Source: a virus | Direction: 5' to 3' (one strand) | Virus record (IMG/VR): IMGVR_UViG_3300021061_000007 | Coordinates: 1 to 44,778 of that record | Length of the DNA: 44,778 nt | In this document: positions 15,584 to 42,744 of the stretch, piece by piece | Position numbering within the stretch: the stretch's first letter is position 1 | Layout of the letters: the number at the start of each line of letters is the position of its first letter | Program-made: the position numbers and the translations under genes | Notes under the pieces: model-generated | Seen by the model: only the letters and a program-made list of their open reading frames with translations | Database searches by the model: none | What the model was told of the DNA's origin: nothing

Positions 15584-15635
15584 ATGCGTAATACGCATAA
15601 TGACTGTTGCGTTTATCGCATCATTTGGGCATGCT
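15584..15635 (+). promoter_or_regulatory. Late promoter/operator A (before terS)
   Basis: Two palindromes: ATGCG-N5-CGCAT at 15584-15598 and TTGCG-N5-CGCAT at 15607-15621, centres 23 bases apart. The second supplies a -35 box TTGCGT (15607-15612), followed after 17 bases by CATGCT (15630-15635). A TATAGT at 15642 is an alternative -10. The terS start at 15660 has GAGAGAAG as ribosome-binding site. Same operator family as at 42.7 kb. Confidence 0.75.
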
Positions 15636-15659
15636 TTCGTCTATAGTAGAGAGAAGTAG

Positions 15660-15926
15660 ATGGCTAAGGGCGTTAAAACCGGGGGGCGTGTTGCAGGCAC
15701 CCCAAACAAGACGACCTCCCATGTCAAAGAGGCGTTGATCGAAGCGTTTGAAGGGATGGGCGGTATTGAGTCCCTAAGGGCGTGGGCAGAAGCGGAACCG
15801 ACCGAGTTCTACAAGCTGTGGGCTAAGCTCTTGCCGCAAGAATTGACGGCCACCATTGACGTGACTCCTGGGCTCGCGGATCTCATAGCCAAGGCAAGGG
15901 CGCGTCATCGTGAACCAAATAGCTGA
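15660..15926 (+). CDS. terS: Small terminase subunit-like protein
   Basis: 88 residues. The basic N terminus GGRVAGTPNKTTSHVKEALIEAF and the later PTEFYKLWAKLLPQEL match short phage proteins placed directly before the large terminase and often annotated as DNA-packaging or small terminase proteins. It overlaps terL by 17 bases. The small subunit would recognise the packaging site; recognition in this phage is inferred from position. Confidence 0.65.
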   Translation: MAKGVKTGGRVAGTPNKTTSHVKEALIEAFEGMGGIESLRAWAEAEPTEFYKLWAKLLPQELTATIDVTPGLADLIAKARARHREPNS

Positions 15927-17412
15927 CCCCGAGACAGCGCTCATCGAGGACATTGCTGGCTTCCAGCATGACCCCCTCGGCTATGTGCTGTACGCGTTCC
16001 CATGGGGCGAGGGCGAGTTGGTCGGACACCTTGGGCCTCGGATGTGGCAACGCGAGATTCTCGTCACCATGGGCGAGAAGCTGAAAGCTGGCAGGGATCT
16101 TGGCTGTGTGATCCAAGAAGCTATCGCATCCGGTCACGGCATTGGCAAGTCTGCACTGGTTGCATGGATCGTGCTGTGGGCGCTGTCGACGTTTGAGGAC
16201 ACCAAGGCGGTGGTGACTGCCAATACCGAGCCGCAGCTACGCACCAAGACCTGGCCGGAACTCTTGAAGTGGCACCGTCTGGCGATCAACAGCCACTGGT
16301 TTGAGCCCAACGCCATGAGCCTGCATGCGAAGTCGCCGGGGCATGAAAAGACCTGGCGCGCCGATGCGTTGCCCTGGTCCGAGCACAACCCCGAAGCATT
16401 CGCGGGATTGCACAACCAAGGCCGGCGCATCCTGCTGGTATTCGACGAAGCCTCTGCCATCTCAGACCGGATCTATGAAGTCGCGGAAGGCGCGCTAACT
16501 GATGAAAAAACCGAAATCATTTGGCTTTGTTTCGGCAACCCGACCCGCAACACGGGTCGCTTTCGAGAGTGCTTTGGCCGTTTTGCCCATCGTTGGGGCC
16601 ATAAGCAGATCGACTCGCGCACCGTTGAGGGCACGAACCGTGCGCAGCTCGACAAGCTCGTAGCCGACTACGGCGAGGATCACGACATTGTCCGCGTTCG
16701 CATTAAAGGCCAATTTCCCAGGGCAGGTAGCATGCAATTCATTTCATCCGAGTACGCTGATGCGGCGCGTAAGCGCGAGCCAAACCCAACCATGTACGAC
16801 CCCAGGATCGTCGGTGTCGATGTAGCGCGCTACGGCGATGATGAGTCGGTCATCTACCTGCGGCATGGCAACGACGCTAAGACAACGCCACCAGTTCGCT
16901 TGCGCGGCGTCGATACGATGACTTTGGCTGGGAAGGTGGCAGAGTTCGCCCAGCGGAACCGAGTTGACATGATCTTCGTCGATGAAACCGGCGTTGGCGC
17001 TGGTGTGGTTGACCGCCTGCGTCAGTTGAATTGCAAGGTGATCGGCGTTAACAATGGTTCTTCGCCCGACAATCAGGCAGTCGGAGACGAGAAAGTTGCT
17101 AACAAAGGAGCGGAGTGCTGGGCAAAGATGCGGCTTTGGCTCAAAGAAACCGGATCGATTGACGACAGCACCGATCTACAAGGACAACTTGAGGGCCGTG
17201 AGTACGGCTACAACTCGAACAATGAGATTGTCCTAGAACGCAAGGACGACATGAAGAAGCGTGGACTAGCGTCCCCTGATCTGGCTGACGCTCTTGCGCT
17301 GACATTTGCCTATCCGGTTCTTTCGCTCACGCGCGAACAAGCCTTACAGCCCGCTGGCTACGGTGATGGTGTCGTCCGCATGGTGCGAGCGCCTAACCCG
17401 TTTGAGGACTAA
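15910..17412 (+). CDS. terL: Large terminase (ATPase and nuclease)
   Basis: 500 residues from GTG 15910. ATPase: Walker A SGHGIGKS (74-81), Walker B LLVFDE (175-180), coupling motif FGNPT (208-212). RNase H-like nuclease: GVDVARYGDDES with D304, MIFVDETGVGAG with D358, and SPDLADALALTF with D457/D460. The motor pumps DNA into the prohead and cuts it. Length and motif order are complete. It starts the late region with terS under promoter A. Confidence 0.95.
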   Translation: MNQIADPETALIEDIAGFQHDPLGYVLYAFPWGEGELVGHLGPRMWQREILVTMGEKLKAGRDLGCVIQEAIASGHGIGKSALVAWIVLWALSTFEDTKAVVTANTEPQLRTKTWPELLKWHRLAINSHWFEPNAMSLHAKSPGHEKTWRADALPWSEHNPEAFAGLHNQGRRILLVFDEASAISDRIYEVAEGALTDEKTEIIWLCFGNPTRNTGRFRECFGRFAHRWGHKQIDSRTVEGTNRAQLDKLVADYGEDHDIVRVRIKGQFPRAGSMQFISSEYADAARKREPNPTMYDPRIVGVDVARYGDDESVIYLRHGNDAKTTPPVRLRGVDTMTLAGKVAEFAQRNRVDMIFVDETGVGAGVVDRLRQLNCKVIGVNNGSSPDNQAVGDEKVANKGAECWAKMRLWLKETGSIDDSTDLQGQLEGREYGYNSNNEIVLERKDDMKKRGLASPDLADALALTFAYPVLSLTREQALQPAGYGDGVVRMVRAPNPFED

Positions 17413-17414
17413 CC

Positions 17415-17552
17415 ATGGCTCACTTCAAGCGCAAGAAGTCCAAGCGCCAAGTCCGATGCACCATGTGCACCAAGTTTCGTTGGCGCGGCAACAGCATGAA
17501 GAGTGCTCATTGGAAGGTGTTGCGCGACCAAAGCTGGACAACCAATGACTGA
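17415..17552 (+). CDS. 45-residue basic protein with CxxC
   Basis: ATG at 17415, three bases after the terL stop. The product is rich in K and R, with CTMC in the middle and RWRGNS after it. Short proteins of this form (RR.VRCTMC....W.GN) recur beside terminase genes in podophages. It overlaps the next gene by eight bases. Function is unknown. Confidence 0.55.
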   Translation: MAHFKRKKSKRQVRCTMCTKFRWRGNSMKSAHWKVLRDQSWTTND

Positions 17553-17823
17553 CCTCGTCTACCTGCATGCCGCCTTCGGTCGCTCGACGTTGGATAACCT
17601 GCGCCTGCGCGACCGCGTCGCCGAGCTGGAGACGCTAGTTGACAAGTTGCGCATGGAGAATGCTGAACTCAAGCATGCGTGCCATGCCGAGATCGCGCGC
17701 GTGCGTGCTGAGAAAGCCGAAACAGTGGCGCTGGACGCGATCGATGCCGAGGATCTGGAGCCGTCGAATGAGCCCGAGCACGTTAGGATTGTGAAGAAGG
17801 GGAATCCCCCGCTGAGGATTTAG
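17545..17823 (+). CDS. Coiled-coil protein of packaging block
   Basis: 92 residues from ATG 17545. Residues about 18-65 form a coiled coil (RLRDRVAELETLVDKLRMENAELK), followed by an acidic stretch and a basic end. It is the last gene of the unit driven from promoter A; promoter B follows within 30 bases. Function is unknown. Confidence 0.6.
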   Translation: MTDLVYLHAAFGRSTLDNLRLRDRVAELETLVDKLRMENAELKHACHAEIARVRAEKAETVALDAIDAEDLEPSNEPEHVRIVKKGNPPLRI

Positions 17824-17850
17824 CCGCCACCAGACGTGTGACGCTCGTGG

Positions 17851-17909
17851 TTGCGCCACACGCAATGAGCTAAACACGTGTTGCGATAAACGCATCACGT
17901 CTGCATACT
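17851..17909 (+). promoter_or_regulatory. Late promoter/operator B (before acetyltransferase/portal block)
   Basis: TTGCG-N5-CGCAA at 17851-17865 and TTGCG-N5-CGCAT at 17881-17895. The second contains the -35 TTGCGA (17881-17886); a 17-base spacer leads to CATACT (17904-17909). The predicted start coincides with the ATG at 17916, so the mRNA would be leaderless. The geometry is the same as for the repressor promoter at 42.7 kb. Confidence 0.8.
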
Positions 17910-17915
17910 CACGGC

Positions 17916-18395
17916 ATGGATTCTGCCGTTGTCGACGTGACGGGCACGTTTCAGGAAGAGGACATTATCGGCCTGTGGGATGAGATCGGGCCTCTGCTTG
18001 AGAAGCATTACCGCGAGATTGCGCACTATCAGGATATTCCGCTGAGCGTTGACCGCGAGGCGTACAACCGCCTCCAAATCGATGGCCGCCTGCGTGTCTT
18101 CACGGTGCGTACCAAAGAGTGGCAGCTAATCGGTTACGCGATCTTCGTCCTGCGGTACAACTTGCATTACAAAGAGTCGTTCCAGGCGTTGCAAGACGTG
18201 CTGTTTCTGTTGCCGGAATACCGGAAGACTCGCATTGGATCGCGGCTGATCGACTTTGCCGACGAGTGTTTAAGGGAAGACGGAGTACAGGTCGTCATTC
18301 ATCACATGAAGGCGGCGCACTCGTTTGGACCTCTCTTAGAGCGCAAAGGCTACGAGCTACAAGACCTCATCTATACCAAACGATTGGACCGCTGA
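17916..18395 (+). CDS. GNAT-family acetyltransferase
   Basis: 159 residues. The GNAT core is visible: a beta strand LIGYAIFVLRYN, then VLFLLPEYRKTRIGSRLIDFADE (acetyl-CoA loop as R-K-T-R-I-G-S), and the C-terminal GPLLERKGYELQDLIYTK. GNAT proteins acetylate amino groups using acetyl-CoA. Similar genes sit between terminase and portal in other podophages; the substrate (host or virion protein) is unknown. It is first in the block driven from promoter B. Confidence 0.8.
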   Translation: MDSAVVDVTGTFQEEDIIGLWDEIGPLLEKHYREIAHYQDIPLSVDREAYNRLQIDGRLRVFTVRTKEWQLIGYAIFVLRYNLHYKESFQALQDVLFLLPEYRKTRIGSRLIDFADECLREDGVQVVIHHMKAAHSFGPLLERKGYELQDLIYTKRLDR

Positions 18396-18396
18396 T

Positions 18397-18705
18397 ATGG
18401 GCTTCACCGGATCAGTCATCGGGGGTATCGTTGGCTATGAATCGGCCACCGGCACAGGGACAACCACCAAGAAGCTGAAGAAGCAAGGCGCACAGATCAT
18501 CGGCATGGACACCACGGCCCATGCGCCGATTCCGGTGCCTCCGCTGCCCAAGCCCAACCAAGTCGCTGCTCCCGTCGATGCGCGCGATAATCAACGTCGT
18601 CGCCGTCAGCAGTACTTCCAGGGCCGTAACAGCACAATCCTCACGGGTGCGTTGGGCATCCCGCAAGACGCCAATGGGACGCGGAAAGTGTTACTCGGCT
18701 CATGA
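18397..18705 (+). CDS. Small virion-associated protein upstream of portal
   Basis: 102 residues. A glycine-rich N terminus (GFTGSVIGGIVGYE) may be a membrane-active or lipid-modified-like segment, though no lipobox is seen. The C terminus, RRRRQQYFQGRNSTILTGALGI...RKVLLGS, matches a motif (R.STILT..LG......K.LLG) common in small proteins encoded beside portals. It overlaps the portal start. Its exact role is unknown. Confidence 0.6.
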   Translation: MGFTGSVIGGIVGYESATGTGTTTKKLKKQGAQIIGMDTTAHAPIPVPPLPKPNQVAAPVDARDNQRRRRQQYFQGRNSTILTGALGIPQDANGTRKVLLGS

Positions 18706-20381
18706 GCGACTACACCACGCGCCGCAAAAAGCATCAGTCACTCCATCAGCAAATGGTGGCCCAACGGCAATCCTTCATCCCGCACTGGCGGGATTTATCG
18801 GATTACGTGCTTCCCAGCCGCTCGCAGTTCTTGGTCACGGACCACGCCAATCGTGGCAACAAGAAGATGTCCAAGATTCTCGACCCCACGGCCACGATGT
18901 CGGCCGGCACACTCTCGGCCGGGCTCATGTCGGGCATGACCTCACCGTCGCGGGTTTGGCACCAGCTGGGGCATCCGGATAAAGACCTGATGGAGTTCCA
19001 GCCGGTTAAACTCTGGCTTGCCAATGCCAACCGAGTTCTGGCAAACAACTTCCTCAAGTCGAATTTCTACGCGGTCTTGCCTGGACTCTATGAAGACTGC
19101 GGCGTCTTCGAGACAGCGGCCATGTGCATGCTGGAGGACGATAAAACCGTCCTGCGCTGCCACCAATATCCAATTGGATCATTCTGTCTGGCACAGAACG
19201 CGAAGCAGATCGTCGACACGTTTTCGCAAGAGTTCGCTTGGACCGTGCGCCAGGTCGTCGAGGAGTTCGGACTCGACAACTGCTCGCGCCGGGTGCGCGC
19301 CGAATACGACCGGGGCAATTACGAGACGATGGTCGAATTGTTCCAGATTATCCTGCCGAATCCGGATGCCGACGAGAGCCAGGTCGACGCCAAGTTCAAG
19401 CCGTGGCTCTCGTGTTTCTACGAAGCTGGCTGCGATGAGGATCTGGCGCTCAGCGAGTCTGGTTACGACGAGTTCCCGATCCTGGCACCGCGTTGGAAGC
19501 TGCAATCGCGCGATGTTTATGGGACGGACGGCCCCGGCATGGTCACGTTGCCGCACGTCAAAGAACTGCAGCGCATGCAGCTGCGCAAATCGCAGGCGGT
19601 CGAAAAGATGGTGGACCCGCCCTTCCGTGGTCCGGTAGGCATGGTCGGGCAACGCATTTCAACCCAGCCTGGCGACTTCACCGCCGTGCCGCCAAGCGCA
19701 GGTGGCCAAGGGTTCGAGCCGCTCTTCGAGATGAACCCGCGCGTGGATATGCTGCAACTGGACATCGACGACCGGCGGCGCGGCATCCAACGCGGCTACT
19801 TTGAAGACCTCTTCTTGATGTTCGCCAACTCGGACCGCCGCGAGATGACGGCCGAAGAAGTCTTGAAGCGCCATGAAGAGAAGATCATGGTCTTAGGTCC
19901 GGTGCTTGGTCGCTTCGACCAGGATCTCTTGAAGCCGTCCGTTGAGCGCAATTTCGCCGTCAGCCTGCGCAGTGGGCTCTTGCCTGAGCCGCCTCCGGAG
20001 CTGCAAGGCCAAGAACTCAAGATCGAGTTCGTCAGCGTCCTGCACCAAGCGCAGAAACTGGCTGGCCTAGGACCGGTTGAGCGAGTCCTGGGAACTGTTG
20101 AGAGGATTGCCAAGTACTACCCGGCCATTCTCGCCAAGGTCGACCTCGATCAGGCAGTCGATGAAGTGGCCGATCTCAGCGGCGCTCCGCCGAAGCTGGT
20201 TCGTCCAGACGAAGTCGCGCAGGAGATCCGCGCACAAGAACAACAGGCGCAGCAAGCGGCCCAGCGCAGCGCCATGCTCGAACAAGCGTCCAAAACCGCC
20301 AAGAACCTCAGTCAAACCACCCTCGACGGAGATAGCGCACTCAGTCGACTGGCCCAAGCGGGTCAGGAACAACCAGCGTAG
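18702..20381 (+). CDS. Portal (head-to-tail connecting protein)
   Basis: 559 residues. Matches the podophage head-tail connector family: early HWRDLSDYVLPSRSQF, then KILDPTATMSAGTLSAGLMSGMTSPSRVWHQL, the central FEMNPRVDMLQLDIDDRRRGIQRGYFEDLF, and MTAEEVLKRHEEK. Twelve copies form the ring through which DNA enters and leaves and to which the tail attaches. The C terminus is a Q/A-rich coiled coil. The length is usual for the family. Confidence 0.9.
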   Translation: MSDYTTRRKKHQSLHQQMVAQRQSFIPHWRDLSDYVLPSRSQFLVTDHANRGNKKMSKILDPTATMSAGTLSAGLMSGMTSPSRVWHQLGHPDKDLMEFQPVKLWLANANRVLANNFLKSNFYAVLPGLYEDCGVFETAAMCMLEDDKTVLRCHQYPIGSFCLAQNAKQIVDTFSQEFAWTVRQVVEEFGLDNCSRRVRAEYDRGNYETMVELFQIILPNPDADESQVDAKFKPWLSCFYEAGCDEDLALSESGYDEFPILAPRWKLQSRDVYGTDGPGMVTLPHVKELQRMQLRKSQAVEKMVDPPFRGPVGMVGQRISTQPGDFTAVPPSAGGQGFEPLFEMNPRVDMLQLDIDDRRRGIQRGYFEDLFLMFANSDRREMTAEEVLKRHEEKIMVLGPVLGRFDQDLLKPSVERNFAVSLRSGLLPEPPPELQGQELKIEFVSVLHQAQKLAGLGPVERVLGTVERIAKYYPAILAKVDLDQAVDEVADLSGAPPKLVRPDEVAQEIRAQEQQAQQAAQRSAMLEQASKTAKNLSQTTLDGDSALSRLAQAGQEQPA

Positions 20382-20384
20382 GGA

Positions 20385-20402
20385 TAGCCACCGAGCTATC
20401 GC
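20385..20402 (+). other. Hairpin after portal gene
   Basis: GATAGC and GCTATC form a perfect 6-bp stem with a 6-base loop four bases after the portal stop. There is no U-tract, so it looks like an mRNA stabilising or processing element rather than a terminator. Confidence 0.35.
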
Positions 20403-20435
20403 ACTTCCACTTACACCACGACAGAAAGCAATACC

Positions 20436-20864
20436 ATGGCTCTCGCATCTAGAAATCGCCGCATCCAGGAATGGCTGGGCAAACAATACTTCAACGCGGG
20501 TGCCTACAGCGCCTCGCCGTCTGCAGGCATCGGTTATAGCACCGGCGCAGGCGGGGCTGTCACCCAGGCGACCAGCAAGTCGACCGGCGTGACGCTGAAC
20601 AACATCTGCGGCGTCATCACGATGAACAACGCGGCTTTGGCCGATGGCGCTGAGGTGACGTTTACCGTCACCAACTCGGCGGTTGCTGCGACCGACTGCG
20701 TTATCGTCAACATCGCATCGGTTGGCACAGCTGGTGCCTACAATATTTCGGTAAGCGCCGTCGCTTCCGGATCGTTCAAGATCTCGGTTGGTAATGTTTC
20801 TGGTGGCTCGCTGAGTGAAGCGATCGTCCTGAACTTTGCCGTCATCAAGGGTGTGTCGGCATAA
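20436..20864 (+). CDS. Beta-rich virion protein (decoration or fibre type)
   Basis: 142 residues. After a short basic start the sequence is almost wholly beta-strand and small residues: TSKSTGVTLNNICGVITMNNAALADGAEVTFTVTNSAVAATDCVIVNIASV...NVSGGSLSEAIVLNFAVI. This pattern recurs in phage and metagenomic virion proteins thought to form an Ig-like or jelly-roll sandwich on the capsid or fibre. The position between portal and scaffold supports a virion role. The precise role is unknown. Confidence 0.6.
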   Translation: MALASRNRRIQEWLGKQYFNAGAYSASPSAGIGYSTGAGGAVTQATSKSTGVTLNNICGVITMNNAALADGAEVTFTVTNSAVAATDCVIVNIASVGTAGAYNISVSAVASGSFKISVGNVSGGSLSEAIVLNFAVIKGVSA

Positions 20865-20868
20865 TGCC

Positions 20869-21072
20869 ATGACCGCAGCCACGTCGACCGCCGACGAACA
20901 GGTTATCCTGTCCGCTCTCGCACGGCGGCGGTCGACTGGCTATCGGTATCTGAAAACCTTGGTTGGCCACGACGCTAACCGCGCGCTTACCGCCATCGAC
21001 GCGTTGCTCCGCGAAGGCTCGATCGAGCGCGTCATGTACGCAGGCGACACCAACTACCGATTGGTCCCATGA
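20869..21072 (+). CDS. Small winged-helix-like protein in head block
   Basis: 67 residues from ATG 20869. EQVILSALARRRSTGYRYLKTLVGHDANRALTAIDALLREGSIERV...TNYRLVP has the outline of a compact winged helix. It overlaps the next gene as ATGA. A regulator within the head genes would be unusual; it could also be a structural adaptor. Confidence 0.55.
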   Translation: MTAATSTADEQVILSALARRRSTGYRYLKTLVGHDANRALTAIDALLREGSIERVMYAGDTNYRLVP

Positions 21073-21257
21073 CCCTGACACCCAATCAACTCGGCAATCT
21101 CGCCTATCGGGCGTTCTGCGCATCGGTGAAGAACAAATACCCGGATGGCGTCACGCCGCGCCCGCATTGGGACGACTTGTCTGAGACCGCGCGCAAGGCG
21201 TGGTCAGACTGCGCGCAGGCTATTGCCGCAGCGGTCCGTACGGATGAGCGGCCATGA
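21069..21257 (+). CDS. Small head-block protein
   Basis: 62 residues, coupled as ATGA at both ends. It contains PRPHWDDLSETARKAWSDCAQAIAA, a short W..L....R.AW..AA pattern common in small phage proteins. No function known. Confidence 0.55.
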   Translation: MTLTPNQLGNLAYRAFCASVKNKYPDGVTPRPHWDDLSETARKAWSDCAQAIAAAVRTDERP

Positions 21258-22654: not shown

Positions 22655-22676
22655 CCGGTCCACTTGAAGGCAGTAT

Positions 22677-23000: not shown

Positions 23001-23010
23001 CCAGCGTCCG

Positions 23011-23073
23011 TTGCGGCAGGAGCAACCATTGCGTCAAACACAATGGTGACTGATGCGTTTAACGCATCATACT
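23011..23073 (+). promoter_or_regulatory. Late promoter/operator C (before scaffold/capsid)
   Basis: Three palindromes of the TTGCG family: 23011-23025 (TTGCG-N5-AGCAA), 23029-23043 (TTGCG-N5-CACAA) and 23053-23067 (ATGCG-N5-CGCAT, extended arms TGATGCG/CGCATCA). CATACT at 23068-23073 is a good -10 box, with a weak -35 (GGTGAC) 17 bases upstream. The predicted start is about 4 bases before the ATG at 23084, so the transcript is almost leaderless. Confidence 0.75.
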
Positions 23074-23083
23074 TCCGTCGTCT

Positions 23084-23782
23084 ATGCCCTCCGAGACACT
23101 GTTAACTGATAAATCGGAAAGTTCATCCGCCGCGGCGGCGGGAACTGCGGCAAGCACGGCGAAAACTGGAAACGATAGTTCCGCAGCTGGATCAAAACCG
23201 GCTGACGGTGCCGCTGCTCCCGGGGCTACTCCTTCCACCGCGAGCGGTAGTGCTGCGCCCGCCGCCGCAGGCGAGGCCAAGCCGGATGGAGCGAAAGCGC
23301 CGGAAAAACCCGCCGTTCCAGAGAAGTACGAGCTGAAGCTTCCCGACGAAGCTGTTATCGACGCGAAAGCGTTCGAGAGCATCTCGGCCCTCGCGAAGGA
23401 ACTCGGTCTCTCCAACGAGCAGGCGCAAAGGATTGTCGCGCACAACGATGCTATCGCACGCAGCGTGCTTGAAGCTCGTGTCGCTGCGCACGAAGAGCAG
23501 ATCGTCAAATGGATGGATGACGTCAAAGCCGACAAGGAAATAGGCGGCGCGAATTTCGACAAGTCGGTCGAAGACGCTAAACGCCTGGTCAACAAGTTTG
23601 GTGACGACGATCTCAAGCAAGCATTGGTGAGCAGCGGATACGGCAACTTCCCACCGCTGGTGCGCATGCTCGCAAAAATTGGCAGCCGTATGAGCGAAGA
23701 TGCCTATCGCTCCGGCGCTCCTGCGCAGACGCAGAAAAGAGAAGTTTCTCTCGCTGAAGCCTTCTACGGACAAAAAGGATAA
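23084..23782 (+). CDS. Capsid scaffolding protein
   Basis: 232 residues. The first 85 are a low-complexity A/S/G/P/K region; then YELKLPDEAVIDAKAFESISALAKELGLSNEQAQRIVAHND, the conserved segment of scaffold proteins of podophages, and a helical C terminus (GNFPPLVRMLAKIGSRMSEDAY). It directs capsid assembly and leaves before or during DNA packaging. It immediately precedes the major capsid gene, as expected. Confidence 0.85.
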   Translation: MPSETLLTDKSESSSAAAAGTAASTAKTGNDSSAAGSKPADGAAAPGATPSTASGSAAPAAAGEAKPDGAKAPEKPAVPEKYELKLPDEAVIDAKAFESISALAKELGLSNEQAQRIVAHNDAIARSVLEARVAAHEEQIVKWMDDVKADKEIGGANFDKSVEDAKRLVNKFGDDDLKQALVSSGYGNFPPLVRMLAKIGSRMSEDAYRSGAPAQTQKREVSLAEAFYGQKG

Positions 23783-23785
23783 TCT

Positions 23786-24793
23786 ATGGCCACCCTCGGC
23801 GGAACCGCCTTAACCCTCCTCGACATTGCGAAAATGACGAACCCGGATGGGTCCGTCGCGAAGATCATCGAAATCCTCGACCAGACCAACGAAGTCGTCA
23901 AAGACATGGTGTGGGAAGAGTGTAACGATGGCGACAGCCATCAGACCACCATCCGAACCGGGCTGCCTTCTGGTACCTGGCGTCGGTACAATGAAGGCGT
24001 TGCTCCGAGCAAGGGAACGACCGCGCAAGTGCGCGTTCAGACCGGCATGCTCGAAGACCGTTCGGTCATTGACAAAGACTTGGCTGAGAAGGGCGGCAAT
24101 CCAGAAGCCAAGCGCGCCGTCGAAGCCGTCGCCCATATCCAGGGCCTCGGGCAGCAGATGGCCACCGCTCTCTTCTACGAAGATGAGCGCACCAACCCGC
24201 TCCGCTTCACTGGCCTTTCGGCTCACTACGCCTCGATTTCGACCTCGACCGCCGCGAGCGCCGAGAATGTCATCGACGGTGGCGGCTCGGGTTCGGACAA
24301 CCTCTCGATTTGGTTCGTGACCCACGGCCCGTTCCACGGCGTCTTGGGCGTGTACCCCAAGGGCAGCAAGTCGGGCTTGGATCACAAGAACGTCGGGCTG
24401 ACCAAGATCATCGATTCAACCGGCGCGGCCGGCTCGGCCTACTGGGCGTACGAAGACTGGTTCCAGTGGAAAGCCGGCCTCTGCGTTCCGGACTGGCGCA
24501 TGAACGCGCGCGTTTGCAACGTGGACGTTAGCAACCTGCGCGCTGAGTCGAGCGATGCGAATCTGATCAAGTTGATGATCCGCGCCGAAGAGACCCTGGC
24601 CAATGCGGCCGGCGGTAAGCGCGTGATCTACTGCAACCGCACTGCCAAGGCGTGGCTGCGCATCCAAGCGGAAGACAAGCGCAACAGCACCGTGACCCTG
24701 GAGACGATCGGCGGCAAGCCGTTCACCATGTTCAACGGTATCCCGGTCGTCACCTGCGACGCGCTGCTCAACACCGAAAGCGCCTTGACCTGA
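23786..24793 (+). CDS. Major capsid protein (GP7/Bbp17 type)
   Basis: 335 residues beginning MATLGGTALTLLDIAKMTNPDGSVAKIIEILDQTNEVVKDM. TTIRTGLPSGTWRRYNEGV and AYWAYEDWFQWKAGLCVPDWR are typical of the BPP-1-like HK97-fold capsid family. Position three bases after the scaffold and the length fit a major head protein. It should be the most abundant product of the late region. Confidence 0.9.
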   Translation: MATLGGTALTLLDIAKMTNPDGSVAKIIEILDQTNEVVKDMVWEECNDGDSHQTTIRTGLPSGTWRRYNEGVAPSKGTTAQVRVQTGMLEDRSVIDKDLAEKGGNPEAKRAVEAVAHIQGLGQQMATALFYEDERTNPLRFTGLSAHYASISTSTAASAENVIDGGGSGSDNLSIWFVTHGPFHGVLGVYPKGSKSGLDHKNVGLTKIIDSTGAAGSAYWAYEDWFQWKAGLCVPDWRMNARVCNVDVSNLRAESSDANLIKLMIRAEETLANAAGGKRVIYCNRTAKAWLRIQAEDKRNSTVTLETIGGKPFTMFNGIPVVTCDALLNTESALT

Positions 24794-24803
24794 TCTGACT
24801 GAC

Positions 24804-24847
24804 AACCCAGTCGGCCGAAGCCCAGACCATCGCAAGGTGGCTGGGTT
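24804..24847 (+). other. Stem-loop after capsid gene
   Basis: AACCCAG (24804-24810) pairs perfectly with CTGGGTT (24841-24847), with further partial pairing of the 30 bases between. There is no U-run after it. In the 96-base gap behind the capsid gene it may protect or process the capsid mRNA. Confidence 0.4.
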
Positions 24848-24889
24848 ACGGCGTCAAACGGCACTGCCAACCATTTCGGAGCTTCCTCC

Positions 24890-25321: not shown

Positions 25322-25353
25322 GCCACCTGACCGGGTAACCCTGGGAGTTCCGC

Positions 25354-25611: not shown

Positions 25612-25661
25612 AGCGCAAGAAGCGCAAACCAAAACCCCGCCCATCGGGGTACTGAGCGGGG

Positions 25662-37300: not shown

Positions 37301-37319
37301 CGGAGCACCGAGAAATTAA
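31296..37319 (+). CDS. Giant internal virion protein C with metallopeptidase motif
   Basis: 2007 residues. N-terminal helical segment (KLPPSLVADQFDMLSKH), a glycine/alanine-rich amphipathic region at about 200-480 (GFLGDLQRGLGGLIADVPLMLTGG; RLAVAGVLGGVAGGGF), then DPSTFLHEVFHFNLEV with HExxH at 774-778, a likely zinc-peptidase site. The centre is a long coiled-coil/helical body and the C terminus has a hydrophobic helix (DYLLLFAIPSALTALVRRFF). It is the counterpart of T7 gp16, but has no visible lytic transglycosylase motif. It is ejected with DNA and probably forms or clears the channel. Confidence 0.85.
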   Translation: MPNEYSDLAREMFGTNVDVSPDNPYVPAAKELANNERIGLRASATTAVDLDPERHGKVLALARKTKLPPSLVADQFDMLSKHTRISDADLDGIHREHPKLGTWLSDRDNAAIAQDDLPVLRSLDYAIRSLTAPDDDPNGILPKGFCFDSHGEIIEPLGYGYANRYKTADDLIKELNRRAEAEGIDEAERIDRANKLREQFGPLANVVAGAGSSAASTLSFLSVNQDRQADADRFSADITSASQQLSPGFLGDLQRGLGGLIADVPLMLTGGPVAKGAQSLLKISRGRAVLSQTIGKTAAKTAADAATVAAAVQPLAVREGVLTGRESGAGNGLMAWAIETAVPSAFGRTGVERALVGEHAEVARLLGKNLGAEGWAPVARRLAVESGFEAVEEATTELAHALHEVASGIDPHALDQDRLLKRLAVAGVLGGVAGGGFNLPSVIAEKFYRDALRAERAERDASLLAAAGKAIEDSATGKRSAERLQDLVKAAGGDSAIYFNQDEWVQHWESQGASPEGIAQSLGVDPTTYQAAVSSGGQIAVPLSNYLAKVGPTEHFQALHKKSRLRADGMSLEEAEQWKKEAPKFLEDVQAVSEPTEVDDAVIADAVEQLVAAGYSPQAAEDSASTLGFFTVLANRWNKDAEARGAKPIDAVELFQSYGLKIQREGKEQSEQPVQEAAQEFGQERFPASGLLLNRVQSLLARREAVRKGEYGKTVDKQAETERIARKPAEFGQGEFDESAKGRDAGRRGSIRIAVDRKVTITLSEKADPSTFLHEVFHFNLEVLGDLAERDGAPQDIKDDYQAVLDWMGVTSRSEIKREHHEQWARAGEAYIMEGKAPSSALRRVFARLSQWIASIYKSLRALNVNLTPEVRGVMDRLLASEEEIAAAEREEVGSPLFLDAKTAGMSEAQFEAYAKGIEKVAMMARENLRAEIMDELKREERAWWKAERQRITEEVTKRVNEQKDYIAIAAMTKGTLPDGSPLPDAIKAVKLNKKALTDDFGAEFLKRLPRGITSKDGVLPEQAAELFGYRSGQELVMAIANAKPKAQHIAEEVEAQLLQEHGDMRFDGRAVAKAEEAIHGSERAKLLMLELEALHKLQRTAKPIVKQADKADREQAKAVVQSIPPIEIFRDVAAKTIAAMKVRDINPKLYLRAARKASKEAFEALGKKDYGLAASLKQKELLNNELFVEASKAKTEIDKIVKAMRRFLQDGTRARIGKAGEDYLELIDDLMARYEFVPMSGRKLDMRNRMAAFIQKIEAEGRPHAIPQDVIDDARAINYQELPFEFLVALRDTAKAIQHLATSKNKALKQRADEDFDVTIGNAAHQIGKNVPPRPPEKKGGNEESGWANLWSRIEGFAAAHRKLSSYARQMDGGKSGGLMWQLLVRGLNEAADTEVEGRKAAAKTQQGLWKAWKESGAKLTDKAVIPGVGEMSREKRIMVGLNFGNEGNRERLRNDFNEPEIQAILNSLEEADWTLIKGIWSHIDSYWPEIAAKQKRVTGLAPEKIEAAPFLTKFGEMPGGYFPIVYDRNRSAKQFGDQKQVEKLYELGAATAATTRRGHTKERTANAGAPLLLSLDVIPRHLSQVIHDLTHHEAIIDMNRLLGDETLATTIQNHLGPKALREMRKIVHDIALSDLAENDVDRALRYVRNGVSVATLGFSFSTAVIQLTGFTQSMQLVGVGNYLKAVARIFSDVGKTESRFDWIRRKSSFMANRSTTVIREASEVINQVKNGQVSAWRERLNQWAYYMTIKAQLTVDMPTWLAAYESALAAGKDEDTAVAIADQAVKDTQGSGLAVDLAGVQRSRVSQLFTVFYSYWNTTFNRSAEAIAAAKRNHWSPEAILRLGSDYLLLFAIPSALTALVRRFFRDDEDRDKNFGAEMAKEQLAALMSTMVGVREVADPLAKLAVSTAMRVAGVDKRDIPKSVSQNFGYQGPAGTMGFEAISDLIIQMKQGELDEGLTKAAGRAAGVWLHLPATQVIRTVDGFMYLEDHRSMDPRPLLFGAPRN

Positions 37320-37323
37320 AGGG

Positions 37324-37385
37324 TTGCGCCAAACGCAATTTGTATTGATGCGATAAACGCATCACAATGGAAGGGGAATTATAAC
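37324..37385 (+). promoter_or_regulatory. Late promoter/operator D (before tail fibre)
   Basis: TTGCG-N5-CGCAA at 37324-37338 and ATGCG-N5-CGCAT at 37348-37362 (extended arms TGATGCG/CGCATCA), centres 24 bases apart. A TATAAC at 37380-37385 is a possible -10 box but no good -35 is placed before it. The operators match those at 15.6, 17.87, 23.04 and 42.7 kb. Confidence 0.7.
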
Positions 37386-37402
37386 CCGACCGGGGCTTTT
37401 CG

Positions 37403-38806
37403 ATGACCGTTGACAACGAAGTCGACCGCAACGACGCGACCGGGAACGGCGTTCAAGTCACGTTCAATTATACGTTCCGGATCCTCGATGAAGAGGAGAT
37501 CCTCGTCACGGTCACGACCAGCGCCGGGGTCGAAAGCACCAAGACGCTGACTACGGACTATAGCGTCACCGGCGTTGGTAACGCCAACGGCGGCACGGTC
37601 GTCTTCGTGACTGCGCCAGCGAACCTCTCAACCGTGACACTGTCGCGAAACATGGAGTTCGTCCAGCCGCTCGACGTGAGCGAGCAAAGCTCCTTTTCCC
37701 TGACAAGTCTGGAGACGGCGCTTGACCGCACGGTCATGCAGATTCAGCAGGTGAAAGAGTCCACCGACCGTTGCATGCGTCTGCCGGTTGGGACCGATCC
37801 GGATGACGTCGATGTCGAGCTTCCGACCCCTTCGGCCAGTAAGTTCCTGGCGTGGAATGCTGATGCCGACGCGCTTGAGAATATCTCGGCCGGAAGTGTT
37901 TCCTTGGCTACGCCGGCCGACAACTCGGTGTCGACGGCCAAGATCCAGAATAGCGCCGTCACGCTCGCCAAGATCGAGGATATTGAGACGGCGCGCATCC
38001 TCGGCCGTGACACCTCTGGGACCGGCGCAGTTGAAAAGCTTACTGCCGCTGAAGTCCTGGCGCTGCTTGCGATCACCCCAGATGCATCGACCGTCGAATC
38101 GAGCGGAACGACACTTCGCGTCAAGGATGCCGGCATCACGGCAGCGAAGTTGAACGCGGCAGTCGTTAGCGGAATGACGGCGGAAACGGCTATTGCCACG
38201 ACCGACTTGCTGGTCATTGGCGACGTCAGCGCAGCAAACGTGCGCAAGATGCTGGTGACGGACTTCCTAAAGGTCATCAACCTCCTTACCGCTGACGCCA
38301 CTCCTGACAATGCCGCTGACTACGTGATGACGTGGGACAACAGCGCCAGCGCGGTCAAGAAGGTCTTGATCTCGAACTTGGCCACATCGTTGCCGCAAGC
38401 GTCCACCTCGGCGGCCGGCATCATCGAGATCGCTACGGCGTCTGAGGTGCAGACTGGGACCGATAGCGCCCGTGCGGTGGTACCAGCGCGCATGCGCGAT
38501 CATCAAGGCGTCGGCAAGGGTTGGTGTAAGTTCGAGCAGGTAGGAACCATTTCGGTGATGGACAGCTACAATGTCACCTCGATCACAGACAGCGGCGTTG
38601 GCGCTACGACTGTGACTTGGGATACGAATTTTGGCAATGCTGACTACGCCGCCGTAGCGACCGTCGATGCCGGCGGAACGAGCGGCTATGCCACAATCGA
38701 TCAAGGCACTGTAGCTGCGGGCTCATGCGTCGTTGAAGTATTTGATGCAGGTGGGGCGGCGCTCGATTCAGCCGGCGTCAGCGTGGTTGGATTCGGAGAC
38801 AACTGA
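37403..38806 (+). CDS. Tail fibre protein
   Basis: 467 residues. The N-terminal 130 residues (GNGVQVTFNYTFRILDEEEILVTVTTSAG...TVTLSRNMEFVQPLDVSEQSSFSLTSLETALDRTVMQIQQVKESTDR) match the T7-like fibre/tailspike attachment domain that binds the tail. The middle has short repeats typical of a trimeric stalk (AAKLNAAVVSGMTAETAIATTDLLVIGDVS). The C terminus is beta-rich and probably the receptor-binding tip. It starts the unit driven from promoter D. Confidence 0.85.
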   Translation: MTVDNEVDRNDATGNGVQVTFNYTFRILDEEEILVTVTTSAGVESTKTLTTDYSVTGVGNANGGTVVFVTAPANLSTVTLSRNMEFVQPLDVSEQSSFSLTSLETALDRTVMQIQQVKESTDRCMRLPVGTDPDDVDVELPTPSASKFLAWNADADALENISAGSVSLATPADNSVSTAKIQNSAVTLAKIEDIETARILGRDTSGTGAVEKLTAAEVLALLAITPDASTVESSGTTLRVKDAGITAAKLNAAVVSGMTAETAIATTDLLVIGDVSAANVRKMLVTDFLKVINLLTADATPDNAADYVMTWDNSASAVKKVLISNLATSLPQASTSAAGIIEIATASEVQTGTDSARAVVPARMRDHQGVGKGWCKFEQVGTISVMDSYNVTSITDSGVGATTVTWDTNFGNADYAAVATVDAGGTSGYATIDQGTVAAGSCVVEVFDAGGAALDSAGVSVVGFGDN

Positions 38807-39285
38807 TGACCGACCAACGCATTGTCTACACGAACGATAAGGGCCAAGTTTGCGTGGTCTGTCCAGCCCCAAAGGCGCGACGCGCAGGTGAGACGGAAGA
38901 GGATTTCGTTGCGCGTATAGCCGCCAAGGACGTGCCGGCCGGAAAGACGTTTCAGATCATGCCCAAGACGGCGCTGCCGAGTCGCCGCTTCCGTAATTGC
39001 TGGAAGGTCGGACAGGCCGGTATCGAAGTCGACTTAGCCAAAGCCGGCGAACAGGTCATGGCCGAAGTCCGGCGTGAGCGCAACAAGCGGCTCGCGGAAT
39101 CGGACGCACTCAAGATTCGCGCTGATGACATCGGGACTCCGCAGGTGAAGAGTGAGATCGCCGAGTATCGCCAAGCTCTTCGTGATTTCCCGGAACTCAT
39201 TCAAGCTCAGGTCAATGCCGCGACATCGGCGGCCGACCTGGAAGCCGTTGCGCCGCTTTGGCCGGAACATCCGGAGAGCGCGTGA
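38806..39285 (+). CDS. Tail fibre assembly chaperone-like protein
   Basis: 159 residues. The C-terminal half, VRRERNKRLAESDALKIRADDIGTPQVKSEIAEYRQALRDFPELI, has the R..L..SD........E....YRQALRD(F/L)P pattern of phage fibre-assembly helper proteins. The N terminus (QRIVYTNDKGQVCVVCPAPKA) is beta-rich. It lies directly behind the fibre gene and overlaps its stop. Confidence 0.75.
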   Translation: MTDQRIVYTNDKGQVCVVCPAPKARRAGETEEDFVARIAAKDVPAGKTFQIMPKTALPSRRFRNCWKVGQAGIEVDLAKAGEQVMAEVRRERNKRLAESDALKIRADDIGTPQVKSEIAEYRQALRDFPELIQAQVNAATSAADLEAVAPLWPEHPESA

Positions 39286-39641
39286 TTGAAACCCCTCCGC
39301 ATCCGACTCACGCGATCAAGCCAGAAGACGGACCGTCCAGCGCATTGGTCAAGCGAGTGAGAACCATTAGCGAAAAGACTGGCGTCACGCTGCCCATCAC
39401 CGTCATCCTCGGGAGCATCACAACCGCCGCCGTATTCCTTTACAACGGCATTGTCGCCCGCATGGACGCGTTCGAGAAGCGCTTGTCAGATACGGTGACG
39501 GAAGCCACCGGTATTGGCAACCGAGTGCTCAAGATCGAGATCGACAGCAAGTACGACCTGGAATGGAAACAGCGCATGGAGCGCGGCATGGAATCGGTCA
39601 ACAACAAGCTGGACGTTCTGACGCGGAAGGGAACTCCATGA
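39282..39641 (+). CDS. Single-pass membrane protein (candidate holin or spanin partner)
   Basis: 119 residues from GTG 39282, which overlaps the upstream stop as GTGA and follows GGAGAG. One hydrophobic helix lies at about 38-57 (LPITVILGSITTAAVFLYNGIV), then a coiled coil (RMDAFEKRLSDTVTEATGIGN). Coupled as ATGA to a lipoprotein gene, it resembles an inner-membrane/lipoprotein pair as in spanins, or a one-helix holin. Neither role is proven. Confidence 0.5.
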   Translation: MIETPPHPTHAIKPEDGPSSALVKRVRTISEKTGVTLPITVILGSITTAAVFLYNGIVARMDAFEKRLSDTVTEATGIGNRVLKIEIDSKYDLEWKQRMERGMESVNNKLDVLTRKGTP

Positions 39642-40129
39642 GAACGCACGACTGGAAATTTTCGCTCGTTGCCTTCCTGCTGTCGCTCGCTCTTACCGGT
39701 ACAGCGCTCATGGTCCTGAGCGGTTGTGGCCCGACTGTCGCACAGATTCGCCAGCAGATCGAGGATGCCAAGAAGACGGTGGAAACACTCGCGGAGGCTT
39801 CTGCTCAACTGCAGGAGATGGCTGAGAACACCAAAGACCCGAACATCATCAAAGCAGTCGCTTCGGCGCAGGCCGCATTGGAACTGGCCAAGGCCGAGAT
39901 ACCTAAGCTGGAGAAGGCGCTTGAGGAGGCCGACCAAGGCGCTCCGTGGTGGACGGTCATCGGCGGCTTAGTCCTGCCATGGCTGCCGCGCCTCGCATCG
40001 CTCATTCCTGGCCTTGGCATCGCCGCTGAACCAATCGCGCGCCTGGTGGCAGAGATGCTCTGGCGCACGACTGCGACCCGTAAGCAGAAGGACGATGACG
40101 TCCAGCCCATCACCATCGTGAAAGCCTAG
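39638..40129 (+). CDS. Lipoprotein with coiled coil (candidate lysis protein)
   Basis: 163 residues from ATG 39638 (ATGA). A signal sequence (about 8-28) ends in the lipobox LSGC, so the mature protein should be lipid-anchored at its cysteine. A long coiled coil follows (IRQQIEDAKKTVETLAEASAQLQEMAENTK), then a hydrophobic stretch (WWTVIGGLVLPWLPRLASLIPGLGIA). With the preceding membrane protein it could span the envelope like an o-/i-spanin pair; it could also be a virion or lysogen surface protein. Confidence 0.55.
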   Translation: MRTHDWKFSLVAFLLSLALTGTALMVLSGCGPTVAQIRQQIEDAKKTVETLAEASAQLQEMAENTKDPNIIKAVASAQAALELAKAEIPKLEKALEEADQGAPWWTVIGGLVLPWLPRLASLIPGLGIAAEPIARLVAEMLWRTTATRKQKDDDVQPITIVKA

Positions 40130-40139
40130 GAAATAGATC

Positions 40140-40490
40140 ATGGCAACTGTTGCACCGACCATCGTCACCCTGCCGCCGTCCCGAGACCATCAAGGCGTGA
40201 CGATTCATCAATGGGCATGCGCTCTTGCTGCCGACGATTACACGGCGGTCGATCTTCCTGGGAAGGCAGACCGCACGGTGCAGGCGTCTGGAACTTGGGG
40301 TGGCGGGACGATCGTGATCGAAGGATCGATCGACGGCACGACCTACAAGACCCTGACCGATCCGCAGGGCAATGCGCTGTCGTTCACCGCTGACGCCATC
40401 GAGGCGATCAGCGAGAACGTGCGATACATCCGACCGAATCCATCCAGCAACGTGACGAGCGTCACGGTGTCCATTCTGTTCCGAGGCTAA
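40140..40490 (+). CDS. Beta-rich tail-block protein
   Basis: 116 residues. TVQASGTWGGGTIVIEGSIDGTTYKTLTDPQGNALSFTADAIEAISENVRYIRPN is a motif (VQ..G..G.GT..IEGS.DG..Y..L.D..GN.L) seen in many small phage structural proteins. It lies between candidate lysis genes and the adhesin genes. Probably virion-associated; role unknown. Confidence 0.65.
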   Translation: MATVAPTIVTLPPSRDHQGVTIHQWACALAADDYTAVDLPGKADRTVQASGTWGGGTIVIEGSIDGTTYKTLTDPQGNALSFTADAIEAISENVRYIRPNPSSNVTSVTVSILFRG

Positions 40491-40505
40491 CTCAGGAGAT
40501 TTACC

Positions 40506-40994
40506 ATGGCTGGCGGCCCGATTTATCCTTATAGTGCTTTCCCGGTCACCTCTGACCGCGTGTTCGCGAACGTCCATATCGGCGCAGGAGCGAACTCCAA
40601 ACACGAAGAAGGGCTTGGCGTCCAAGCATCGCTCGGCGCGGACGCCATCTGGCGCTTGCGCTTTGCAATGCCGCCATCCTCGCTCCCCAGCGGCACCTGC
40701 AAGCTGGTGATTATGGCGCTGGCGAATGCGACTAGTGGCGCGGCAAAGATCAACCCGAAGTGGGCGAGCATCGCAGCTGAGGAAGCTCCTGATACGGCAT
40801 CGCTCAATGCCGAGACGGTCCAAACAATCACCTGGGCAGCTGGCGATAACGACCAGTATAAGCAGCTCAAAGTTGCTCTCGATGCTGATACGCCGGTTGC
40901 GGGCGAACATATCGCCATGGATCTGACGTTTGAGACGTCTGGATGGACGCTGGCGCAGATTTTGACCTGCAACGCCTACATCATTTGGGAGTAA
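40506..40994 (+). CDS. Beta-rich virion protein, tail block
   Basis: 162 residues. It is mostly beta-strand with small residues (WRLRFAMPPSSLPSGTCKLVIMALANATSG; VAGEHIAMDLTFETSGWTLAQI), with conserved-looking W and G positions. Similar proteins occur near fibre genes in podophages and may form part of the tail tip or a decoration. No catalytic motif. Confidence 0.6.
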   Translation: MAGGPIYPYSAFPVTSDRVFANVHIGAGANSKHEEGLGVQASLGADAIWRLRFAMPPSSLPSGTCKLVIMALANATSGAAKINPKWASIAAEEAPDTASLNAETVQTITWAAGDNDQYKQLKVALDADTPVAGEHIAMDLTFETSGWTLAQILTCNAYIIWE

Positions 40995-40998
40995 CTCC

Positions 40999-41256
40999 AT
41001 GGCCGTTCTTGATGCCTCCGCCCGCGCAGACGTGCGCAACAAGTTTATCCAGGCGTTCTTTGTCGGGCTGCGTAAAACCGCTGATCTCGACAGTACGGAA
41101 ATTGCGACGTTGATTGCTGACATCGATGCGTGGCTCGACGCCAATCAGGCCGCTGCCAATAGTGCCATTACGGCGGCGGTTCGCACGAAAGCCAGCTCTG
41201 ACACCAAGTTCTCGGCGCTTGCCTACGTCGCGCTCAAGAGGGCGGGAGTGATCTAG
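40999..41256 (+). CDS. Small helical tail-block protein
   Basis: 85 residues, four bases after the preceding gene. ADVRNKFIQAFFVGLRKTADLDSTEIATLIADIDAWLDANQAAANSAI is wholly helical with no cysteine. Possibly a virion or assembly protein from position. Function unknown. Confidence 0.55.
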   Translation: MAVLDASARADVRNKFIQAFFVGLRKTADLDSTEIATLIADIDAWLDANQAAANSAITAAVRTKASSDTKFSALAYVALKRAGVI

Positions 41257-41258
41257 CC

Positions 41259-42302
41259 ATGGCGAGGCTATTCGCCAAGGCATCGACGCAGTACCTTGAA
41301 GCGTCCTATAGCCTCTCGGTTGCTCCGGTTACTTTCGCCTGCTGGTATCGACCTGCGAGCGAGAGCGGCACGGCGGCTCATGTGCTGATGGCGTGCAGCG
41401 ATCCTGCTGCGCAAACGCTCGCCTTTCGGATGTCTATGATTGAATCGTCGGTGTACGCTACAACCTATCAGGTTGGAGCCAGTGCCCATTCGATCACCGC
41501 CGGGACGCTCGCGGATAACACCTGGGGCCACTGCGGCGCGGTGTTTGCCTCAGCAACCTCGCGCACCGCGTACTTAAATGGCACTGCCGCGACAACCAAC
41601 ACAACCAATATCAATGCAAACACGCTGACACGCTTCAACATCGGCATATTCTCACGCAACAACTCACGCTTTGAGCCGGCAGATGGCCGTATCGCAGACG
41701 CGGCAATGTGGACGGTGGCGCTTTCTGCCAACGAGATGGCGGCGCTCGCAAAGGGTGCGTCCCCCCTCCGAATCCGCCGGGAAAGCCTTGCCGGGTACTG
41801 GCCGCTCTACGGCTTCCAAAGTCCCGAGCAAAATCTTGCCGGTGCTTTGAGCCTGACCGTTACAAATAGCCCAACGCAAGCTGAGCATGCTCCGGTTGCG
41901 CCGCACTCTCGCAAGTTTTGGCCGGCGAGCGCGCCGTACATCGCGTCCAATGCCGCCCCGACCGCTAACGCGGGCGATGATCAAACGATCATCCTGCCTG
42001 CAACCGCGACCCTCAACGGCTCAGGTACTGATGACGGTCTGCCGGCACCGATAACGTACTCGTGGGCCAAGCAGAGCGGGCCAGGTACGGTCACATTCTC
42101 GCCGAACAATGCGACGGCCAACGCCGTCGCATCCTTCTCCGAAGAAGGCACCTACGTCCTGCGCCTGACGGTCAGCGACACTGAGTTGTCCCACACCGAC
42201 GACGTGACGATTACGGTTAACCCGATCCCGACCAACGCAGTCCTAACGCCACAGGTTGCCAGGCGTCGTCGCAGGCGCGTTCGCTTCGGGCGTCGTCGTT
42301 AG
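41259..42302 (+). CDS. LamG plus PKD-like adhesin with arginine tail
   Basis: 347 residues. About 1-190 is a LamG/concanavalin-like sandwich (PVTFACWYRP, ADNTWGHCGAVFAS, FNIGIFSRN, GRIADAAMWTVALSANEMAALAKG). About 229-325 is a PKD/Ig-like domain (APTANAGDDQTI...LNGSGTDDG, YVLRLTVSD, DDVTITV). The last 15 residues are almost all arginine (ARRRRRRVRFGRRR). LamG and PKD domains bind glycans, so this is a candidate receptor or cell-surface binding protein. It ends 4 bases into the convergent repressor gene. Confidence 0.75.
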   Translation: MARLFAKASTQYLEASYSLSVAPVTFACWYRPASESGTAAHVLMACSDPAAQTLAFRMSMIESSVYATTYQVGASAHSITAGTLADNTWGHCGAVFASATSRTAYLNGTAATTNTTNINANTLTRFNIGIFSRNNSRFEPADGRIADAAMWTVALSANEMAALAKGASPLRIRRESLAGYWPLYGFQSPEQNLAGALSLTVTNSPTQAEHAPVAPHSRKFWPASAPYIASNAAPTANAGDDQTIILPATATLNGSGTDDGLPAPITYSWAKQSGPGTVTFSPNNATANAVASFSEEGTYVLRLTVSDTELSHTDDVTITVNPIPTNAVLTPQVARRRRRRVRFGRRR

Positions 42303-42685
42303 CCCGTCTTGCCCTTTTCCCGGCCGTCCAGGGCCTCAACGCCTTCGCCGTAGCCCAACGACCGCAAGAGGTCGGCAACAACGTCCTGAGCGCTTCCTCG
42401 CGCCTTCCTGACCCGCTTGGCGAACTCAGCAGGCGACATGGCCTGACTATTCAACTTGAGGCCGGCGTGCTCTAAGACCTCCGTCAGCGGCACGTCCAGG
42501 AGCCGGGCAAGTTGCTGGGCTTCGTGGAGCAACATGTGGCGCTTGCCGGACAACAGGCGCGAGACATTGGATTGGTCCAACGAATCGCCGTTGAGCTGTT
42601 TCAGATGCGGCGCTAATTGGCGCTGCGAGCCGAACCGACTGGCCTTGATCTTGTCGGCAAAATATTGTCGGTCGAAGCGCGCCAC
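42299..42685 (-). CDS. XRE-family repressor of the late-operator system (CI-like)
   Basis: 128 residues from GTG 42685. This start is chosen because a promoter with TTGCGT, 17-base spacer and CATACT puts transcription at exactly that G, giving a leaderless mRNA as for lambda cI from PRM. QRQLAPHLKQLNGDSLDQSNVSRLLSGKRHMLLHEAQQLARLLDVPLTEVLEHAGL (about 20-75) is an XRE helix-turn-helix domain. There is no peptidase domain. It diverges from the carph-isopro gene across two operators of the dispersed family and is the best candidate for binding them. Confidence 0.7.
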   Translation of the reverse strand: MARFDRQYFADKIKASRFGSQRQLAPHLKQLNGDSLDQSNVSRLLSGKRHMLLHEAQQLARLLDVPLTEVLEHAGLKLNSQAMSPAEFAKRVRKARGSAQDVVADLLRSLGYGEGVEALDGREKGKTG

Positions 42686-42692
42686 GCGGAGG

Positions 42693-42744
42693 AGTATGAC
42701 AGCCGGTTGCGCGAGACGCAATGGTAATGATGCGTTCGGCGCAT
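42693..42744. promoter_or_regulatory. Operator pair E and leftward repressor promoter
   Basis: TTGCG-N5-CGCAA at 42707-42721 and ATGCG-N5-CGCAT at 42730-42744 (extended arms TGATGCG/CGCATCA), centres 23 bases apart. On the minus strand TTGCGT (42721-42716), a 17-base spacer and CATACT (42698-42693) form the repressor promoter. The geometry equals promoters A and B, so the repressor would control itself and late genes alike. Confidence 0.8.

Follow-up and report, generated by a model that had tools for sequence, protein, structure and literature searches.

Why should one palindrome recur in tandem along 27 kb of a phage genome, and which protein does it serve? The question is raised by the viral record IMGVR_UViG_3300021061_000007, all 44,778 nt of which were analysed (the window; with its terminal direct repeat of 127 bp, it represents a circular genome of 44,651 bp). 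An earlier note on this DNA had counted at least 11 copies of the palindrome WTGCG-N5-CGCAW, placed them between transcription units and proposed that a regulator pair near the right end controls all late blocks through them. We lean modestly towards reading the copies as operators of a compact CI/Cro-type switch, encoded at 42.3–43.1 kb, that would be dedicated to the late genes.

Putative tandem operators at predicted late promoters

The palindrome occurs exactly nine times in the window; dinucleotide shuffles average 0.51 copies and reach 3 at most. As the earlier note had described, all nine copies lie in intergenic clusters, five in number (A–E), whose gaps make up 1.5% of the genome. The other two sites of the earlier count, at 23011 and 23029, are imperfect, and a further one-mismatch site at 42824, inside a regulator gene (the carph gene, introduced below), had been overlooked; it may be a chance occurrence. 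We trained a 19-bp position weight matrix on the nine exact sites and scanned the whole genome with it. The ten top-scoring positions all fall within the five clusters, so that the search for matches beyond these loci upheld the earlier picture. The 23029 site is the tenth of them (12.9 bits) and is convincing though imperfect, whereas the 23011 site is marginal (rank 14, 7.2 bits), being outscored by the 42824 site and by two intragenic positions outside the clusters. When each cluster in turn was left out of the training, the proximal sites still ranked 1–6 and all sites ranked 14 or better. The same scan found no good match to the TTGCG operator in the early region (1–12 kb).

Pairwise comparison of the 21-mers splits the sites into two classes, which the earlier note had not described. 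Class 1 (15584, 15607, 17881, 23053, 37348 and 42730) is of the type TGWTGCG..CGCATCA, and class 2 (17851, 23011, 23029, 37324 and 42707) is mostly GGTTGCG..CGCAATG. Clusters B–E carry class 2 on the left and class 1 on the right; in cluster A both sites are class 1. CGCATCA ends all five proximal sites, and both 7-base arms are present only at 23053, 37348 and 42730, the three sites for which they had been reported. Centre-to-centre spacings in A–E are 23, 30, 24, 24 and 23 bp, with a further step of 18 bp in C. The OR sites of phage lambda are likewise spaced 23–24 bp apart, and this equality suggests, by analogy, that adjacent dimers cooperate. The sites are as follows.

15584..15598: cluster A distal site, ATGCGTAATACGCAT; exact match, 22.9 bits; precedes the gene in the terS (small terminase) position
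15607..15621: cluster A proximal site, TTGCGTTTATCGCAT(CA); exact; its own TTGCGT forms the predicted −35; centre at −28
17851..17865: cluster B distal site, TTGCGCCACACGCAA; class 2, exact
17881..17895: cluster B proximal site; exact; its own TTGCGA forms the predicted −35
23011..23025: cluster C far site, TTGCGGCAGGAGCAA; weak, one core mismatch
23029..23043: cluster C distal site, TTGCGTCAAACACAA; one core mismatch
23053..23067: cluster C proximal site, TGATGCGTTTAACGCATCA; exact; centre at −20, between GTGACT (23046) and CATACT (23068)
37324..37338: cluster D distal site; class 2, exact
37348..37362: cluster D proximal site, TGATGCGATAAACGCATCA; exact; centre at −20, between TTGTAT (37340) and CACAAT (37363)
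42707..42721: cluster E site 1; class 2, exact; gives the −35 of the predicted leftward XRE promoter, TTGCGT-N17-CATACT
42730..42744: cluster E site 2, TGATGCGTTCGGCGCATCA; class 1, exact; −51 relative to the XRE promoter, −62 relative to the predicted carph promoter
42824..42838: additional site, CTGCGCAATACGCAA; one mismatch; inside the carph gene, at about +32 of its predicted promoter

Each late cluster precedes a block of rightward genes. Their opening genes and further predicted promoter elements are listed here.

15630..15635, +: predicted −10 CATGCT of late promoter A, after TTGCGT-N17
15660..15926, +: first gene of late block A, in the terminase-small position; its PHROG is of unknown function
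15910-17412: next gene, in the large-terminase position
17904: predicted −10 CATACT of late promoter B, whose predicted start coincides with the ATG codon at 17916
17916..18395, +: GNAT gene, opening late block B; the portal gene lies at 18702
23084..23782, +: gene in the protease/scaffold position, opening late block C; the capsid gene lies at 23786
37403..38806, +: tail fibre gene, opening late block D
42764..42792, +: predicted carph promoter, TTGTTG-N17-TATTAA

The pattern TTGCGW-N17-CATRCT matches the genome three times where 0.02 matches are expected: at 15607 (+), at 17881 (+) and at 42721 (−), the last being the predicted promoter of the XRE gene itself. At clusters C and D the predicted promoters read GTGACT-N16-CATACT and TTGTAT-N17-CACAAT. 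By a simple sigma-70 score each late cluster has a match among the top 70 of 446,200 positions, and the XRE promoter ranks 89; for cluster A the top-70 match uses a better-scoring alternative −10, TATAGT at 15642, and TTGCGT-N17-CATGCT ranks 463. A general sigma-70 scanner did not list the cluster promoters because of its threshold of 9 of 12. The proximal site centres lie over the core promoter, at −28 in A, B and (for XRE) E and at −20 in C and D, so that bound sites should exclude RNA polymerase; the distal site centres lie at −44 to −62 of the late promoters. At 17916, 42685 and 23084 the predicted transcription start coincides with the start codon or lies only a few bases from it. Because the predicted −10 elements are so near these codons (within 17904–17916, 42685–42698 and 23068–23084), the transcripts may be nearly leaderless.

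The regulator pair at 42.3–43.1 kb and its relatives

Cluster E lies between two divergent genes for helix-turn-helix (HTH) regulators, with the tandem sites at 42707 and 42730 in the gap, which is the layout of a CI/Cro switch.

42299..42685, −: XRE-type HTH protein of 128 amino acids, CI-like, with a GTG start; candidate late repressor
42802..43083, +: carph-isopro relative of 93 amino acids (the carph protein), with a predicted Cro-like fold

The pair is the best candidate regulator of the clusters. No S24 domain was found in the XRE protein. In tblastn searches it shows 35–40% local identity to the cI-like regulators of BcepIL02, BcepMigl and PEp14-like phages (of Burkholderia and Erwinia). 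We set these relatives aside as operator evidence: they have an extra C-terminal region, and the sequences between their regulators differ, which makes them uninformative on the TTGCG operator. The carph protein scores 20.8 bits (E 3.2e-4) against the NF046037 profile, below the curated cut-off of 38 bits, whereas its relatives in two other phage loci, L007 (47.9 bits) and L016 (52.8 bits), exceed it; by these scores it is a divergent NF046037 relative rather than a formal member. A structure model built from 16 sequences (predicted local distance difference test score, pLDDT, 91) has as its top fold match the Cro protein of Xfaso 1 (3bd1) and also matches N15 Cro and P22 c2, with moderate scores (Z 6.8, Foldseek E 0.05). 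A peptide search of the viral-contig collection returned no close carph relatives. L016 itself is PQ492659.1, Limnohabitans phage DC33, whose listing under Inoviridae looks wrong for a record of 39 kb with 52 genes.

The operator and the carph family recur together elsewhere. Scanning viral loci for tandem TTGCG sites by DNA alone yielded at least 117 loci, and a carph family gene is present in 33 of 117 among the matches listed, compared with 0 of 160 loci selected by capsid and 1 of 62 loci with scrambled tandem palindromes. The carph profile used here had four seeds, two of which came from operator-selected loci of an earlier scan; with the window's carph protein as the sole query, the counts are 17 (tandem-TTGCG loci listed) and 1 (scrambled). 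Among the matches listed, 32 of the 33 carph genes have an operator with at most one mismatch at −300 to +60 of the gene start (background, 0.21 per 360 bp), and two loci (L007 and L008) repeat the divergent XRE/carph arrangement with tandem operators in between. This recurrence appears to tie the operator class to the regulator pair. A further pattern match, L006, has no regulator near its site, and the TTGCG operator is absent from the parts examined of five capsid-related contigs (L001–L005, 48–53% identity).

The TTGCG class is present in 50 other phage records, with 2–8 exact sites each (2–4 in 42 of the 50), mostly within about 2 kb of each other among the matches listed. Tandem TTGCG-N5-CGCAA is also common in viral contigs (L180–L296), where, among the matches listed, many sites form pairs of clusters about 0.8–0.9 kb apart, as if flanking one gene. 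The record with eight sites, G031, was considered as a second dispersed case and rejected, five of its sites being repeats by a replication-type gene and one lying in a portal-like gene. Those five are copies of TTGCGTGCGACGCAA/TTGCGTCGCACGCAA within 124 bp (L297:2923-3046, or G031:C1:11922-12045) and look iteron-like.

The proposed late switch and its rivals

We propose the following scheme. The XRE protein would bind class-1 sites over the cores of four sigma-70-like late promoters (terS, GNAT/portal, scaffold/capsid and fibre) and block RNA polymerase, with help from a cooperating dimer on the next site, 23–24 bp away in four of the five clusters. It would also control its own promoter, whose −35 falls within a class-2 site, an overlap that the earlier note had missed. 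The divergent carph protein, predicted to be Cro-like, would recognise the same operator and, once made, turn off the XRE gene and free the late blocks. Assigning carph to class 2 and XRE to class 1 is our proposal: in cluster E the XRE −35 lies under a class-2 site, so carph could turn off XRE there as Cro does at OR3, whereas in B, C and D carph on its class-2 site would stand upstream of the late promoter and leave it free. We infer repression, with late-gene release as its reversal, rather than activation because of the sites over core promoters and because the distal sites are out of helical phase. The earlier claim that the pair controls all late blocks thus gains from the sites at the late promoters, a geometry suited to repression, a best candidate pair and the carph/operator recurrence, and it stays a prediction from sequence.

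Early genes run leftward from 12.0 kb and late genes rightward over 15.66–42.30 kb, and the early genes would be under a separate regulator pair with its own operator, which the earlier note did not mention.

11981..12099: TTACC-N6-GGTAA array, with sites at 11981, 12053 and 12084 (12084 with one mismatch)
11694-11987, −: XRE gene; the array sites lie between or at the starts of this gene and the next
12026-12526, +: gene divergent from it

A whole-genome scan found no TTACC-N6-GGTAA elsewhere. The half-site resembles that of the operator of phage epsilon15, TTACC-N5-GGTAA. Since this separate XRE pair has an operator to itself, the TTGCG system seems to be reserved for the late genes. We entertain, tentatively and as a bet we would not quite take, the stronger idea of two independent CI/Cro-like switches, with that at 12.0 kb governing early genes and the other targeting only its own promoter region and the four late promoters; lysogeny and late timing would then be under separate repressors and separate operators.

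Alternatively, a single phage repressor might serve early and late genes, as annotated in epsilon15, with the TTGCG clusters as outlying operators and the 12.0 kb pair in a minor role. Such a unified switch is the known layout of the group, since in epsilon15 the operator found near the repressor gene also precedes terS, portal and tailspike. In the window, however, the TTGCG operator is missing from the early region and the TTACC operator is confined to 12.0 kb, so that a single operator cannot cover early and late genes alike, and we regard this account as quite improbable. That carph or XRE instead turns on the late promoters from the distal sites, as activators such as P2 Ogr or Mu C do, would suit both the position of those sites (−44 to −62, a range that activators use) and the imperfect hexamers of the predicted late promoters. 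However, the distal centres step by 7 bp (−44, −51, −58) and so leave helical phase, each cluster also has a core-promoter site at −20 or −28 that suits repression, and the carph protein models as a Cro-like repressor; activation is accordingly unlikely in our judgement. We give very little credence to the idea that the sites belong to a host or other regulator and that XRE and carph lie beside cluster E by coincidence: it draws on the weak family match of XRE, but many other phages show the same operator–carph pairing, and one operator site lies within the XRE promoter.

Several observations weigh against the late switch that we favour. The sites of cluster B are 30 bp apart, unlike the 23–24 bp of the other four clusters. 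Relative to the predicted carph promoter, the two sites of cluster E are at −62 and −85, which does not make XRE an obvious repressor of carph, and terminators between the late blocks are few, making read-through possible. The XRE protein matches HTH_3 (PF01381) at 21.3 bits (E 2.8e-4), below the Pfam gathering score of 23; it has no close relatives in the viral-contig or genome-contig collections; and its single-sequence structure model is poor (mean pLDDT 46). If the late switch is nevertheless real, it would be a simple means of timing or silencing the virion genes one block at a time, it could explain the silence of late blocks in a lysogen without a Q-type gene, and it would present a small, testable set of promoters and proteins.

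Comparison with known systems

The portal, capsid, protease/scaffold-position and Bbp19-like genes place the window in the epsilon15/BPP-1 podophage group; among named phages no near DNA match was found. The earlier label of a BPP-1-like phage holds at the level of this group, but portal identity (about 43% to epsilon15, 40% to BPP-1) puts the window slightly closer to epsilon15, and a de novo search found no comparable family of repeated palindromes in BPP-1, BcepC6B, Tr60_Ab31 or Shamal. The phage is probably temperate, because an integrase-type gene adjoins an apparent 3′ part of a tRNA, a likely phage attachment site (attP).

13161-14345: integrase-type gene, adjoining the apparent tRNA 3′ part
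14380-14433: apparent 3′ part of a tRNA (probably tRNA-Leu, judged by eye), shortly after the integrase gene; no complete tRNA here by ARAGORN

Late genes of temperate phages are usually pictured under indirect control, through an antiterminator or activator made from early genes. The earlier note took a multi-promoter, operator-controlled late region to be undescribed; this does not hold, as the GenBank record of epsilon15 already marks sites labelled 'repressor (lysogeny)' ahead of terS, portal and tailspike, and related prophages carry this operator at corresponding positions. We counted 11 TTACC-N5-GGTAA sites in the epsilon15 genome, and 20 of 160 capsid-related loci carry at least two sites of this class, mostly at the terS and portal positions. 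On these annotations and loci, dispersed late operators read as a recurring trait of the epsilon15/BPP-1 group, and in epsilon15 relatives, too, a repressor would probably act directly on several late promoters. In a prophage fragment from a Syntrophobacteraceae metagenome-assembled genome (L021:3841, 6996, 11505) we observed three epsilon15-class palindromes, against 0.05 in shuffles, some of which may be intragenic.

The window and epsilon15 (Uetakevirus) share related virion genes (portal 43–44%, capsid 42–43% identity) and the use of one 15-bp palindrome with 5-bp arms before terS, portal and fibre/spike and near a regulator, clusters A, B and D corresponding to epsilon15 sites 12, 2931 and 19895. 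The systems differ in the operator itself, which is ATTACC-N5-GGTAAT in epsilon15 and TTGCG-N5-CGCAA at the late genes of the window, where TTACC sites have an N6 spacer and occur at 12.0 kb only. The XRE protein has no detectable similarity to the epsilon15 repressor. Late sites are single in epsilon15, as annotated, and tandem in the window; an operator before scaffold/capsid is present in the window and absent in epsilon15; and the early/immunity region shares the late operator in epsilon15 but not in the window. Promoter geometry at the epsilon15 late sites is ambiguous and was not used.

Carph-isopro CI/Cro switches, with a P22 Cro-like partner and TTGCG-N5-CGCAA, resemble the window in having a divergent pair with tandem operators and, if the carph model with its moderate scores is right, a Cro-like fold, whereas the sites of the window are spread over 27 kb and lie on four late promoters. 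The carph-isopro/TTGCG-N5-CGCAA pairing itself lets an operator be predicted, in testable form, for a family of phage regulators about which little is known. Single regulators with many targets are familiar: C1 of phage P1 is a single repressor that binds at many places in the genome, and P2 Ogr and Mu C each serve several late promoters through dyad-symmetric sites, as activators bound upstream, unlike the window, where the site covers the core promoter. One study of cluster A mycobacteriophages describes stoperators, many genome-wide binding sites for one repressor (PMC9283540); these are asymmetric and terminate elongation at numerous places, whereas the palindromes of the window overlap the cores of four promoters. 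Dispersed late operators have their precedent in the annotations of epsilon15, and what is new here is the operator, its tandem pairs, the scaffold/capsid cluster and an apparently late-only switch.

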